Shown: positions 16,596 through 21,797 of the stretch, one piece after another
How positions within the stretch are numbered: position 1 is the first letter of the stretch
Layout: every line of letters starts with the position of its first letter
Assembly: GCF_039645585.1 (NCBI RefSeq)
Contig: NZ_CP147915.1
Span: forward strand, 1,798,001 to 1,862,000
Reading direction: 5' to 3'
DNA: 64,000 nucleotides
From: Sulfurimonas sp. HSL-1656
GTDB lineage: Bacteria; Campylobacterota; Campylobacteria; Campylobacterales; Sulfurimonadaceae
Notes under the pieces: model-generated
Database searches by the model: none
What the model saw: only the letters and a program-made list of their open reading frames with translations
What the model was told of the DNA's origin: nothing
Made by a program: the position numbers and the translations under genes

Positions 16596-16780
16596 CGCCC
16601 TTTTACCCACCATAAGTGATGAAATATTCATCATTAAAGCATAGACTTTGCATGAAAACTCATCTACAATGCCCGGCGTACATACGATTTGACACCAGCC
16701 ATTTTATTTTTCTCCTTTTCCCGCTTCCCGGCGCAGTGGTGCCGGGGAAGAGAATATGCCTATTTTACGAAGGAGTTTCC

Positions 16781-17653
16781 ATGCAAAACCTAGTATCCAT
16801 CTACGAAGAAAATGCCGACCTTATCCAGAAATTCATCCTCGCGTCCATCCAGCGGATCGGACTTGTCCATCTGACGGAAAAAAACGTCAAACACATTTTT
16901 GCCGTCTTCCCGAGCCTGGAGCTGGCCTATGAAACCGACGAAGGGTTCGCCCAGACCTCCGCCAACCACAGCCGCCACAAAAAGGATTCGTCAGCCGTCG
17001 GCGCAGACCGCAGCTATCTCATCGACGAGAGCAGACTCACCGGCGACTACTACTTTCACGAGCCCTACCTCTCCACCACGACGGGCCATCTGTGCATCAC
17101 CGTCGTCTACAAGACGGCCAAGGGCGGCTACATCCTGCTCGATTTCCAGCTGCGCAACCTTCTCGAACGTTTCATGCTGATCGAGAACAACGGCGCCCTC
17201 AAGCTGACCCACCGTACCCTCTACGGCATCATCGGCGGGGGCCTGCTACTGCTGGGAATCTTTGTCGTCCTCTACGGGCTTTTCAGTTTCGGCCACTACC
17301 TCATCATCGAGGAGGAGCTCTCGCTGGAGATGTTCTTCAAACCCGTCATCGCCCTGACCCTTGGCCTGGCCGTTTATGACCTGGGCAAAACGATCGTCGA
17401 CCAGGAGGTCATGCCCAAAACGCAGAAAGTCCACGAGGGGATCAAGGTGAAGACCCTGCTCAACTTTTCCGTCTCCATTCTCATCGCCCTGATGATCGAG
17501 GCGCTGCTCGTCGTGTTCAAGATCTCCATCTCCAACTACCACGACCTCCCCTACGCCGCAACACTGATCGGGGCGCTCGCCCTGCTCTTCTTTGTCTTCT
17601 CCTACTTCATCTACATCGTCAGGAAGAGCGGGAGCGCCCCGGAACTCGAATAG
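16781..17653 (+). CDS. membrane protein with N-terminal sensor-like (PDC/Cache-like) domain
   Basis: 290 residues. The N-terminal part (about 1-135) is soluble and helix/strand mixed. GDYYFHEPYLSTTTGHLCIT and VYKTAKGGYILLDFQLRNLL look like the membrane-distal end of PDC sensor domains. Four hydrophobic helices follow (about 150-175, 190-210, 225-250, 262-285), but no kinase, GGDEF or HAMP domain. The ATG at 16781 has AGGAG five bases upstream; an in-frame ATG at 16616 lacks one and adds unrelated residues. Function unknown; a sensory or ligand-binding membrane protein is a guess. It converges on korB with two bases between the stops. Confidence 0.6.
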   Translation: MQNLVSIYEENADLIQKFILASIQRIGLVHLTEKNVKHIFAVFPSLELAYETDEGFAQTSANHSRHKKDSSAVGADRSYLIDESRLTGDYYFHEPYLSTTTGHLCITVVYKTAKGGYILLDFQLRNLLERFMLIENNGALKLTHRTLYGIIGGGLLLLGIFVVLYGLFSFGHYLIIEEELSLEMFFKPVIALTLGLAVYDLGKTIVDQEVMPKTQKVHEGIKVKTLLNFSVSILIALMIEALLVVFKISISNYHDLPYAATLIGALALLFFVFSYFIYIVRKSGSAPELE

Positions 17654-17655
17654 CC

Positions 17656-18498
17656 TCAGTAGGCGTCAAAGAGCGCCTGGATGTGCGCGGCGTCATGCGT
17701 TGCGAGGTAGAGCGGCCGCCGCTGCCCGTGGCGGACGCGTTCCTCGAACGTCTCCGTTTCCCGGCGGTAAAAAATCCCCAGCGGGAACGGCCCGCTCTCC
17801 ATCGCCCGCGCCATCGCCGCGCCGGGATCGGCCGTGTCATGGGAGGCGTCCAGCTCATAGGTATGTTCTTTGAACCAGCCGAAGGTGTTGATCTTGTTGA
17901 ACGTCACGCAGGGCTGAAAGATGTCGACCAGGGCGTAACCGCGGTGCAGGAATGCGGCCCTGAGGACGCTTTTGGCATGCTCGGGATTCCCGATATTGAC
18001 CCGGGAGACGAATCCCGCCCGCAGCGCCAGCGCCACGGCCAGGGGGTTAAAGGGCTCGTTGCCGACCCCGTCGACCTGCACCTTCGTTTCCATCCCTCTC
18101 TGGCTCGTCGGCGACGCCTGCCCTTTGGTCAGCCCGTAGATCATATTGTTATGGACGATATGCACGATATCGACGTTGCGGCGGACGGCATGCAGGAAGT
18201 GATTTCCCCCCTCCCCGTACATATCGCCGTCGCCCCCCTCTGCCACGACGGTCAGTTCGGGGTTGGCCGCCTTGACGGCCGTCGCGACGGGCACGGCCCG
18301 CCCGTGCAGCACCCCGAACATATTGACGTCGACATAATAGGGCGTCTTCGCCGCCTGGCCGATGCCCGAGACGATGACGACGCTGCGCCCTTCGGCCCCG
18401 AGATCGTCCAGCACCTTGCGGATCAGCGTGAGGATGCCGAAGTTCCCGCACCCCGGGCACCAGCCGATATCGACGTTTTCGCGTTCAAACGGTTTCAT
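17656..18498 (-). CDS. korB: 2-oxoacid:ferredoxin oxidoreductase beta subunit (2-oxoglutarate type)
   Basis: 280-residue thiamine-diphosphate subunit that decarboxylates 2-oxoglutarate, or another 2-oxoacid, with CoA and ferredoxin. WCPGCGNFGIL (residues 13-23) supplies cluster-ligand cysteines; the TPP site is EGGDGDMYGEGGNHFLHAVR followed by IVHNNMIYGLTKGQASPT. The length and CPGCG start match the two-subunit KorAB class. Its ATG overlaps the KorA fusion stop as ATGA, so subunits are made in step. In Campylobacterota this enzyme commonly runs in the reductive TCA cycle, where it fixes CO2 onto succinyl-CoA. No other cycle gene is in the window. Confidence 0.9.
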   Translation of the reverse strand: MKPFERENVDIGWCPGCGNFGILTLIRKVLDDLGAEGRSVVIVSGIGQAAKTPYYVDVNMFGVLHGRAVPVATAVKAANPELTVVAEGGDGDMYGEGGNHFLHAVRRNVDIVHIVHNNMIYGLTKGQASPTSQRGMETKVQVDGVGNEPFNPLAVALALRAGFVSRVNIGNPEHAKSVLRAAFLHRGYALVDIFQPCVTFNKINTFGWFKEHTYELDASHDTADPGAAMARAMESGPFPLGIFYRRETETFEERVRHGQRRPLYLATHDAAHIQALFDAY

Positions 18499-21068
18499 GA
18501 GAGCTCCTTTAGCACGGCAGCAAGTTGTCCTGCCAGCTGATCGGCGAAATAGGCGAAGCCGTTGCTCTGCAGGATCCGCCGGTCGGCCCCGACGCCGTGC
18601 AGCGCCAGCTGCTCCGCAAAGGCACCGTCGGCATTGTTTTCGACGACGATGCGGTATTCATACGTTTGCAGGAAGGCCAGCTGTTCGGGGTCGAGCGGAT
18701 GTACCCATGCGAAGTGGACCTGGCAGGTCCGGTCGTCGCCCAGGTGCGCCAGGGCCTCGGCAATCGCACCGCGGCTCGAACCCCAGCCGATCACCGCGAT
18801 GCTCCCCGCACCGCGCACTTCCGGCGCCCACGCCTCGGCCACGATTCCTTCGGCCTTTCGGGCACGCTTGGCAACCATCGCCTCGCGGACGCGGAAATCC
18901 TCGGTGATCTGCCCCCTTGCATCGTGTTCGTGACCGTCGCTGCAGACCAGCCCCTCGCCGCCGCCCGGAACGGCCCGGGGGCTGACGCCTGAAGGGGTAT
19001 CGGCATAGCGGTGGTATGTTTCGGATGCCGGTGCGATGTAGCGGCGCTGTTCAAAGTCGGAAAAATCGATATCGCCCGTCATCGCCATCGTATCGGCGAG
19101 GTACTGGTCGCTCAGCACGATCACGGGCACCTGCCACCGGTCGGCCAGTTCAAAGGCGAGGTGGCCCAGCTCGACGCATTCATGCAGCGAACCGGGGGCA
19201 AGGATGATCCGCGGAAAGGGGCCGTGCCCCGAATGCAGCGCCAGGTTCAGGTCGCCCTGCTCGCTGCGGGTCGGCAGCCCCGTCGCCGGGCCGGGCCGCT
19301 GGGCCAGGTAGACGACGGCGGGGGTCTCCGTGATGCCCGAGAGGCTGATCCCCTCGCCCATCAGCGCGAACCCGCCCCCCGACGTCGTCGTGAGCGCCCG
19401 CGCCCCGGCGTACCACGCCCCCATCACGAGGTGGATCGAGGCGATCTCGTCCTCGCTCTGCTCCACAGCGATCTCGAAGCGTTTGGACATCCCCGCCATA
19501 AAATTCAGCACCCCCGTAGAGGGGGACATAGGGTAGGAGGCGACAAAGTTGCATCCCCCGGCGAGAAACCCGAAGCCGCAGGCGGTCGTGCCGTCCATCA
19601 GGTGGAGCGCGGCAGCCCCTTCGGGATGGGGATGAGGCAGCGGCGGCAGCGGAGGATGCTGAAGGTTCCGGCCCGCTTCGGCACCGGCCTGCACCGCGTC
19701 AAGGTTCCCCCTGTCCCCGCCGAAACGCGCCTCCACGCTCTCCATCAAGGGGGGCGTCTCCAGACCGAGCATCCCGTAGACCAGCCCGGCGGCATAGGTG
19801 TTGGCGTAGCGCGGATCGCCCAGCCGCTGCGCCTCGCGCTGCATGGCAACGGCGATCGCGCCGGCCGCCTCCGCCGCAAATCGCTCGTCGGCCAGTACGA
19901 CCGTCCGTGCGGTCAGGCGCGGCGCCGCATGCGTCAGCGCCAGGGCGTCAAGCGCGATGAAGAGGTCCACCTCCCAACAGGGTGCCTCCTGCGGCGCATC
20001 GGCAATGCGGATCAGGGTCGTATTGCTCCCCCCGCGGACCCGGGACATGAACTCCTTGCTCGAATAGACGTAGTAGCCGCTGCGGACAAAGGCGTCACTG
20101 AGCAGCTTCTCCATGGTGTCAATCCCCATACCCGCCGCCCCGCCGATCAGGATAGAGAGACTCTGCGCAGCCCCGGACGGGGCAGGCTCTCCCGACTCAG
20201 ACCGCTGAAACGGCGGCAGGGAAGCCTCTGCGGCAAAAGGGACCTCATACCGCCCTGCCGAAGAGAGCTTCGCGTCCGTGCCCGGCGAAGGCGCAGATTC
20301 GGATACCGCCTTGAAAGCGGATGCAGAATCTGTTTGCGCCTGAGGATAGGGCATGCTCTCGCCCCAGGTGATCTTGCCGCCGTAGTAGCCCAGCACGATG
20401 ACCCCCGCGCCCGTCAGCAAAACGATCGCATGGTAGGCGATGCTCTCCGCCCGCCAGGTGTAGACGATACCCGGCTCCTCCATATAGAGCACGATCGCTA
20501 CGACCCCCGCCAGCAACATCAGGGTAGAAAGAATGATCTTGACGGCAAAGGGGCGGCGCCAGGTCCCGCCGTAATTGATCCGCCAGCTGATCAGCCCGGG
20601 GACCATCGCGACCGCACCCATCACCGTCGCCGCCAGGAAAGTATAGAAAACGGCGGCGGCATACAACGCGGTCGGTGCGGCGAAAAAGAGCAGATCCATC
20701 AGCGAAGCAAAGAGATGAAGGGCAATGGGGAAATGGACGGTCATGGGATGGGGGTGGTAGCGTCGGTAGAGCGCCTGCCAGCGGCGGCGGCGCTCCTTGT
20801 TCGGGTCCGGCGGCGGCGCATCGGCCCGGGCCGTCTGCTCCGGCTCCGCTTCCAGGGTGCCGACGACACTGTAGCGTTCAAACACCTCTTCGCCGTGCGG
20901 GGCGCCCTCGAGCATGGGCGTGAGGTCCCTCCCCGCCCGGTGCATCCCCTGGTGGTTCCCCTCCGCCCACATCGGGCTCTCGGAGACGTCGTAGACCTTC
21001 CCTTTATAGGCAACATAGGCGGGCCTTCCGTCACGGCCGTCATACGCCGCAAGTTCACGCGAAGTCAT
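18495..21068 (-). CDS. korA: fusion: cytochrome-b5-like heme domain, DUF2231 membrane domain, KorA (gamma-alpha) subunit
   Basis: 857 residues in one uninterrupted frame. Residues about 2-72 are a cytochrome-b5-like domain: RELAAYDGRDGRPAYVAYKG, KVYDVSESPMW, AGRDLT and APHGEEVF, with His39, His43 and His58 as possible heme ligands. Residues about 105-232 are a four-helix DUF2231 domain opening with HPHPMTVHFPIALHLF. A Ser/Ala/Pro linker (about 240-301) leads to the 2-oxoacid:acceptor oxidoreductase gamma part (SILIGGAAGMGIDTMEKLL, FMSRVRGGSN). The alpha part starts at about residue 490 (MDGTTACGFGFLAGGCNFVA, SYPMSPSTG, VEQSEDEIASIHLVMGA). A standard KorA is about 560-600 aa, so about 280 residues are extra. 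The ATG at 21068 has AAAGGAGGAGG upstream. It lies 48 bases after sodB. Inference: the enzyme is membrane-tethered and may exchange electrons with a heme. A sequencing-made fusion is not excluded, but the linker reads as normal coding sequence. Confidence 0.85.
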   Translation of the reverse strand: MTSRELAAYDGRDGRPAYVAYKGKVYDVSESPMWAEGNHQGMHRAGRDLTPMLEGAPHGEEVFERYSVVGTLEAEPEQTARADAPPPDPNKERRRRWQALYRRYHPHPMTVHFPIALHLFASLMDLLFFAAPTALYAAAVFYTFLAATVMGAVAMVPGLISWRINYGGTWRRPFAVKIILSTLMLLAGVVAIVLYMEEPGIVYTWRAESIAYHAIVLLTGAGVIVLGYYGGKITWGESMPYPQAQTDSASAFKAVSESAPSPGTDAKLSSAGRYEVPFAAEASLPPFQRSESGEPAPSGAAQSLSILIGGAAGMGIDTMEKLLSDAFVRSGYYVYSSKEFMSRVRGGSNTTLIRIADAPQEAPCWEVDLFIALDALALTHAAPRLTARTVVLADERFAAEAAGAIAVAMQREAQRLGDPRYANTYAAGLVYGMLGLETPPLMESVEARFGGDRGNLDAVQAGAEAGRNLQHPPLPPLPHPHPEGAAALHLMDGTTACGFGFLAGGCNFVASYPMSPSTGVLNFMAGMSKRFEIAVEQSEDEIASIHLVMGAWYAGARALTTTSGGGFALMGEGISLSGITETPAVVYLAQRPGPATGLPTRSEQGDLNLALHSGHGPFPRIILAPGSLHECVELGHLAFELADRWQVPVIVLSDQYLADTMAMTGDIDFSDFEQRRYIAPASETYHRYADTPSGVSPRAVPGGGEGLVCSDGHEHDARGQITEDFRVREAMVAKRARKAEGIVAEAWAPEVRGAGSIAVIGWGSSRGAIAEALAHLGDDRTCQVHFAWVHPLDPEQLAFLQTYEYRIVVENNADGAFAEQLALHGVGADRRILQSNGFAYFADQLAGQLAAVLKELS

Positions 21069-21116: not shown

Positions 21117-21797
21117 TTACGTGGCGGTCGTTTCGTTTGCCTGCATCGTATCGACGTAGTCGCACACCTCGGTGTTGTCGTTGCAGGGCTGGCTGTAGCC
21201 GGCGATGGGATCATTCTCCTCCGCGGCAAGGTTATCGGAAACGAAACGCCAGTTGATCAGCTGCCACCACTGCTCCAGGTACTCCGGCCGGGCGTTTCGG
21301 CGGTCGATGTAATAGGCGTGTTCCCAGACGTCGCAGACCAGCAGCGGCCGCCGTCCGTAGCGTACGGGCGTATCGGCGTTGGAGGTCGTCTCGATCACCA
21401 GGGTGTTCTCGGCGCTCAGTACCAGCCAGGTCCAGCCCGACCCGAACAGCCCTGCCGCCGCGGCGAGGAAGGCCCCTTTGAACTCCTCCATCGACCCGAA
21501 GTCGCGCTCGATCATCTCGGCGAGCTCCGCCGACGGCTCTGTGCCCCCGGGAGACAGGCCCAGCCAGTAGAAGTCGTGGTTGAAGACCTGGGCGGCGTTG
21601 TTGAAGGTTGCGCCTTCTGCCTCGCGGATGATCTTGAGCAACGGGACATGTGCAAAGATCGTCGCGTTGATCAGCGCGTTGAGTTTTGCAACATAGCCGG
21701 CATGGTGTTTCCCGTAATGGAAAGACACCGTTTCGGCAGAGATATTGGGTTCCAGCGCCGTCGCTTCGTACGGCAGTTTCATCAGTTCGAATGCCAT
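21117..21797 (-). CDS. sodB: iron/manganese superoxide dismutase
   Basis: 226-residue enzyme converting superoxide to oxygen and peroxide. Metal ligands lie in VSFHYGKHHAGYV (first His), FNHDFYWLGL (second His) and VCDVWEHAYYIDRRN (Asp and His). Tryptophans WTWLVL and WWQLINW are typical. The C-terminal 35 residues (with CNDNTEVC) extend past the usual end of about 195 aa. The ATG has AAAGGAG upstream. It is probably co-transcribed with the Kor genes, which fits protection of an oxygen-labile Fe-S enzyme. Fe versus Mn is not decided. Confidence 0.92.
   Translation of the reverse strand: MAFELMKLPYEATALEPNISAETVSFHYGKHHAGYVAKLNALINATIFAHVPLLKIIREAEGATFNNAAQVFNHDFYWLGLSPGGTEPSAELAEMIERDFGSMEEFKGAFLAAAAGLFGSGWTWLVLSAENTLVIETTSNADTPVRYGRRPLLVCDVWEHAYYIDRRNARPEYLEQWWQLINWRFVSDNLAAEENDPIAGYSQPCNDNTEVCDYVDTMQANETTAT

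Follow-up and report, generated by a model that had tools for sequence, protein, structure and literature searches.

In the window (a 64,000-nucleotide stretch of Sulfurimonas sp. HSL-1656, contig NZ_CP147915.1, positions 1,798,001 to 1,862,000), we analyzed a gene in which the KorA subunit of a 2-oxoacid oxidoreductase is fused to a cytochrome b5-like domain and a DUF2231 domain, together with the adjoining korB gene (Table 1). The source genome is a single contig of 2.556 Mb with about 60% G+C. The fused gene is one open frame on the minus strand, which runs from an ATG at 21068 to a stop at 18495 and has 857 codons. The open reading frame caller had chosen a GTG start giving 871 aa, but the ATG is likelier because the Shine-Dalgarno sequence GGAGGAGG lies directly upstream of it. 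Pfam analysis gave the domain order Cyt-b5, DUF2231, POR, and POR_N, each above its cut-off: Cyt-b5 (PF00173) matched residues 3-72 with 27.3 bits (cut-off 23.7), DUF2231 (PF09990) residues 107-236 with 38.2 bits (cut-off 26.4), POR residues 313-464 with 82 bits (cut-off 27), and POR_N residues 502-733 with 165 bits (cut-off 27). The NCBIfam model of the gamma-alpha fusion, TIGR03710, scored 535 bits (cut-off 483), which identifies the protein as a KorA. The ATG of KorB overlaps the stop codon of the fused gene as ATGA (ctcATGAaacc, 18498/18495). The original prediction, made from the sequence alone, had described just this arrangement, namely an 857-codon frame joining b5, DUF2231, a linker of about 60 residues and a complete KorA, with KorB following by an ATGA overlap, and these results confirmed it.

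The fused frame was also present in three complete genomes from this genus, at 89-91% identity. The linker, where a frame error had been considered as the weak point of the prediction, was open and in frame in all three, with indels only in multiples of three, and no frame error was found. The ratio of nonsynonymous to synonymous substitution rates (dN/dS) against these sister genomes was lowest in the b5 domain (0.04-0.09), followed by 0.07-0.14 in DUF2231, 0.10-0.11 in KorA, and 0.67-0.72 in the linker; such a profile reads as that of a functional multi-domain protein with a flexible tether. Because the same domain order is shared by members of several genera and of two families and the dN/dS of the domains is low, the fusion is neither a product of chance nor a frame error, and a chimera is ruled out as well. 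One copy from a metagenome-assembled genome (MAG; L021/L040 in genome G084) has an in-frame TGA in place of a conserved KorA tryptophan (APC*EVD), which is either a sequencing error or a broken gene. But the genome studied here is a single contig, the fusion occurs in independent assemblies and genera, and all domains are under strong purifying selection, so a frame error, chimeric assembly, or decaying gene has a negligible probability. We rejected frame error and chimera because three sister genomes and many genera share the fusion.

The distribution of the fusion was examined in three surveys, which covered 151 genomes of the family, 397 genomes of the phylum (at least 90% complete), and about 85,000 species genomes. 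The last was scanned with an alignment of the N-terminal b5-DUF2231 module (N module), a full-protein query having returned no matches. A KorA orthologue was present in 39 of the 151 family genomes. The N module occurred in 20 of the 397 phylum genomes, belonging to 6 of 68 genera, and KorA adjoined it in every one. The largest scan gave 34 loci, 32 of them in Campylobacterota, where KorA lay directly downstream in 31 and the remaining one was at a contig end. That is, all untruncated Campylobacterota modules adjoin KorAB, and relatives with the two halves as separate unlinked genes, which would have spoken against the original prediction, were not found in this phylum. Two relatives outside the phylum, L080 (Spirochaetes MAG) and L082 (Nitrospirae MAG), are stand-alone genes with no KorAB within the fetched flanks, and a plasmid search with the N module gave lone b5 domains only.

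The fusion was intact at about 29 distinct Campylobacterota loci, and the halves were split but adjacent at about 13 more, in Sulfuricurvum and some Sulfurovum. Linkers of fused forms were either long (52-62 residues) or short (26-37 residues); the halves of split forms were separated by 14-20 nucleotides (nt) in Sulfuricurvum and by about 110 nt in L046. The linker here carries a short YE[VA]PF motif (YEVPF), which is found in long-linker forms of other genera and not in short-linker forms. In L020 (1431-3219), KorA is preceded by only the first 15 or so residues of the b5 domain, and in L029 (about 1170-1270) a short reading frame fuses the start of b5 to the end of DUF2231. These scars are either natural module deletions with KorAB kept or assembly errors, which MAG copies may carry. 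When the KorA tree was rooted with two distant KorAs from plasmids, the Sulfuricurvum rows, which are split, all fell into one clade and the 39 remaining rows, mostly fused, into a second, inside which L046 and L084 (both split) and L018 and L020 (module lost) were nested. The tree would fit either one fusion with later splits or an ancestral fusion that was split in Sulfuricurvum.

The three histidines of the b5 domain pointed out in the original prediction (H39, H43, and H58) were invariant across 27 homologues. Over 73 residues, the domain matched the solved structures 6nzx (Z 14.4, root-mean-square deviation 1.5) and 6vz6 (Z 13.9, root-mean-square deviation 1.4) with 51-58% sequence identity, and equivalents of all three histidines are present in both. 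6NZX has been described as a b-type cytochrome (PMC7096707). The b5 domain, which is the sole Cyt-b5 domain of the genome, is therefore likely to bind haem, with H39/H43 and H58 as candidate axial ligands.

The DUF2231 domain has predicted helices at 108-130, 134-166, 172-197, and 207-235, and AlphaFold2 (AF2) modeled it with a confidence score (pLDDT) of 91 alone and 86 together with b5. Membrane anchoring by these four helices with both termini cytoplasmic is well predicted, and the positive-inside charge count agrees with the N-in/C-in topology. Invariant histidines of this part are H107, H112, H118, and H213, with H105 just before the domain. H118, G151, G188, and H213 were identical in 27 of 27 KorAB-linked copies and D125 in 26 of 27, while all five were altered in both stand-alone relatives (L080 and L082), which retained H105, H107, H112, W162, N165, Y166, and K177. 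With two outsiders for comparison, this is suggestive of a residue set tied to KorAB association. The set maps to the middle-outer half of the predicted bundle, a position that might fit a haem or quinone site. The module could also be a plain anchor, in which DUF2231 holds KorAB near its partners and b5 is structural or ligand-binding, with no electron transfer from KorAB. DUF2231-only forms upstream of KorAB and the long, variable linker would agree with this, but b5 shows the strongest conservation of all segments and has retained its three histidines, and H118 and H213 are specific to linked copies, which goes beyond the needs of an anchor. We regard the plain anchor as quite unlikely.

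KorB scored 330.6 bits against TIGR02177 (cut-off 261.9), as expected of a beta subunit, and has the thiamine-diphosphate motif GDGD...NN with invariant G89-D92 and N117-N118. Its best beta model was PRK11869 (NF008821) with 406 bits, below the equivalog cut-off of 438. Cluster cysteines C14, C17, and C197 are present and the third is a glutamine, Q48 (codon 18355-18357), so the four-cysteine set of a [4Fe-4S] cluster is incomplete. Glutamine occupied this position in all linked KorBs examined (about 50); cysteine was found at the equivalent position, after SGIG, in the Sulfolobus, Magnetococcus, and Helicobacter enzymes (5b46, 5b48, 6n2n, 8ys5) and the organism's own OorB, and also in KorBs from Cytobacillus and Embleya (SGIGC) and from Natrinema (AGIGC). 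An in-silico Q48C change lowered the PRK11869 score by 4 bits, which means that the glutamine is a trait of a wider subfamily, and raised the scores of four other beta models by 2-6 bits. The idea that Gln48 is unique to this clade was thereby weakened, as the PRK11869 profile itself favors glutamine. The KorB cluster may be held by three cysteines and another ligand, or may be an altered cluster. K51 and L123 correspond to K49 and L123 of StOFOR, which set the broad substrate range of that enzyme (PMC5020499), so the substrate is likely 2-oxoglutarate or mixed 2-oxoacids.

The gene upstream encodes an Fe-type superoxide dismutase (SOD). A SOD gene on the same strand, mostly 18-115 nt upstream, was found in all four genomes of the genus and also in G117, G025, G016, G030, G046, G063, G058, G070, and G358; at least 12 genomes, from two families, have it at a distance of 18-115 nt. 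In other loci, SOD lies 361-401 nt upstream (L067 and L071), divergent (L074), or downstream (L077 and L084), so the link arose or was retained repeatedly. In this phylum, Oor and Por are sensitive to oxygen, and their electrons enter the respiratory chain by way of ferredoxin or flavodoxin and Nuo (PMC6682613); two-subunit Kor enzymes tolerate oxygen relatively well (PMC5020499). Together with the SOD neighbor, this indicates work near oxygen. The module might be an oxygen shield that does not feed respiration: together with SOD, it would keep the Fe-S cluster safe, either as a redox sensor or by passing O2 or superoxide equivalents on to the membrane, much as CybB, a superoxide oxidase of the b561 kind, does with quinone. 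However, SOD also adjoins the module-less KorAB locus L018, so its association relates to KorAB and not to b5-DUF2231, and most Sulfuricurvum loci have no nearby SOD. The shield is in our view unlikely. The C-terminal tail of the SOD (residues 193-226) contains the motif CNDNxEVCDYVD, which recurs in the KorAB-adjacent SODs of L018 and L046; the tail did not align in the SODs of L067 and L084.

Table 1 Features of the fused KorA locus in the window
Feature	Position	Strand	Basis
Fused KorA gene, 857 aa (cytochrome b5-like, DUF2231, linker, KorA gamma-alpha)	18495..21068	minus	
Cytochrome b5-like domain, residues 1-73	20850..21068	minus	Pfam; 6vz6/6nzx fold matches
DUF2231 domain, predicted four-helix membrane domain, residues 107-236	20361..20750	minus	Pfam; AF2; charge count
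Linker, residues 240-300, fast-evolving	20169..20351	minus	dN/dS, motif comparison
KorA gamma-alpha part, residues 301-857	18498..20168	minus	TIGR03710; structure matches 5b46_A, 6n2n_A
KorB, 280 aa	17656..18498	minus	TIGR02177; motif and Cys comparison
Fe-type SOD, 226 aa, 48 nt upstream of fused gene	21117..21797	minus	Pfam; neighbor counts
345-aa protein convergent with KorB, at least 2 hydrophobic segments	16616-17653	plus	

The 345-aa protein convergent with KorB had no Pfam or NCBIfam match. The operon has no ferredoxin subunit. The genome also encodes canonical OorA/OorB, PorA/PorB-like, and NifJ-like oxidoreductases and ATP-citrate lyase; with Oor, Por, and NifJ-like enzymes present, the fused KorAB is an additional enzyme, the organism's third type of 2-oxoacid oxidoreductase. 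The NifJ-type pyruvate oxidoreductase match lies in a frame of about 1213 aa (G000:C1:2030744-2031097). Sulfurimonas fix CO2 via the reductive tricarboxylic acid cycle (PMC12029903), ATP-citrate lyase is encoded here, and quinol electrons could be imagined to reach the enzyme via haem b and the membrane part for reductive CO2 fixation. But canonical Oor and Por are present, and menaquinol (about -75 mV) cannot reduce succinyl-CoA and CO2 (about -500 mV) without strong energy coupling. To our knowledge, a four-helix b-type domain does not supply such coupling. We therefore consider this role very improbable, and the importance that the original prediction gave to electron supply for CO2 fixation is not supported, as menaquinol is too oxidizing and Oor, Por, and NifJ-like enzymes are also encoded.

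The reading we prefer, with a rough probability of 0.48, is that KorAB is membrane-anchored and that a tethered haem b, under micro-oxic conditions, relays electrons from the Fe-S cluster in the direction of menaquinone. The N-terminal module would tether the enzyme to the cytoplasmic membrane on its inner side. Decarboxylation of a 2-oxoacid (2-oxoglutarate is probable, or else a broad set of substrates) would take place on thiamine diphosphate, and the electrons would go to the single KorB Fe-S cluster. Kor and Por enzymes work at about -500 mV, and their usual acceptor is a soluble ferredoxin or flavodoxin. Two-subunit Kor enzymes have a single cluster, and the open pocket next to it is the docking site of ferredoxin (PMC5020499). 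The b5 haem, on the KorA side of the membrane and on a flexible linker of 55-60 residues, could use this pocket as a built-in electron carrier, much like the built-in ferredoxin domain of larger enzymes. From b5, electrons would pass through the membrane domain to menaquinone and bypass ferredoxin or flavodoxin and Nuo. The main direction would be oxidative under micro-oxic conditions; electrons released from a 2-oxoacid (about -500 mV) drop far in energy on reaching menaquinone (about -75 mV). The original prediction had likewise proposed haem, a membrane anchor, and a quinone route: the anchor is backed by the four-helix prediction and the haem by the closeness of b5 to solved haem proteins, while haem binding, transfer from cluster to b5 and on to quinone, and the direction are what we infer.

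Several observations weigh against this reading. One cluster cysteine is missing in KorB, which makes the Fe-S cluster itself uncertain. DUF2231 without b5 precedes KorAB in L031, L084, L085, and L087, which shows that b5 is dispensable; KorAB has no module in L018, and only deletion scars are left in L020 and L029, so KorAB can act without the module. Structure searches with DUF2231 gave generic four-helix bundles only, with weak Foldseek matches to CcmC and b561. A rough depth estimate put H118 mid-membrane and H213 about 10 Å closer to the outer face; a simple bis-His pair was downgraded because of this distance, and H118-H213 is only a possibility, and a poor one, for the ligands of one haem. 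A narrower form of the proposal, in which the single chain is a wire that leads from thiamine diphosphate and the Fe-S cluster via the b5 haem into a membrane haem or quinone site of H118, D125, G151, G188, and H213 and bypasses ferredoxin, flavodoxin, and complex I, is doubtful. The original prediction made no mention of the SOD neighbor, the loss of the KorB cysteine, the forms that are split, lack b5, or have lost the module, or the histidine pair of linked copies.

If KorAB is wired to the membrane, the coupling of carbon flux and respiration in microaerobic sulfur oxidizers would be changed, and the system may reveal how cells operate oxygen-sensitive Fe-S enzymes where oxygen is close by. 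For DUF2231, whose function is unknown, it would be the first redox context. The natural series of split, long-linker, short-linker, b5-less, and module-lost forms offers ready-made comparisons for the role of each part.

Our literature searches found no membrane-bound Kor, no Kor-family 2-oxoacid:menaquinone oxidoreductase, and no paper linking DUF2231 with cytochrome b5. The OorDABC and PorCDAB enzymes of Campylobacterota belong to the same reaction class, but they are separate genes and proteins with no membrane or haem domain, and they share 31-36% identity with the fused KorA in the alpha core only. The small prokaryotic cytochrome b5 domains of Hadesarchaea (6nzx) and Methanococcoides burtonii (6vz6) have the same three histidines but are separate small domains, whereas b5 here is joined to a membrane domain and an enzyme. 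The HP..HFPI motif is common to the DUF2231 family (PF09990) and this domain, and the KorAB-linked copies add H118, D125, G151, G188, and H213 and precede KorAB. The closest likeness in subunit makeup is with StOFOR1/2 of Sulfolobus tokodaii (5b46/5b48), the Magnetococcus enzyme (6n2n), and Hydrogenobacter KorAB, which like this enzyme consist of a gamma-alpha KorA and KorB. The two-subunit enzymes (TIGR03710/TIGR02177) share with it the thiamine-diphosphate motif and the lack of a ferredoxin domain, and the equivalents of StOFOR KorB K49 and L123 are retained; unlike them, the enzyme described here carries an N-terminal b5-DUF2231 module on KorA and glutamine in place of the third KorB cluster cysteine.

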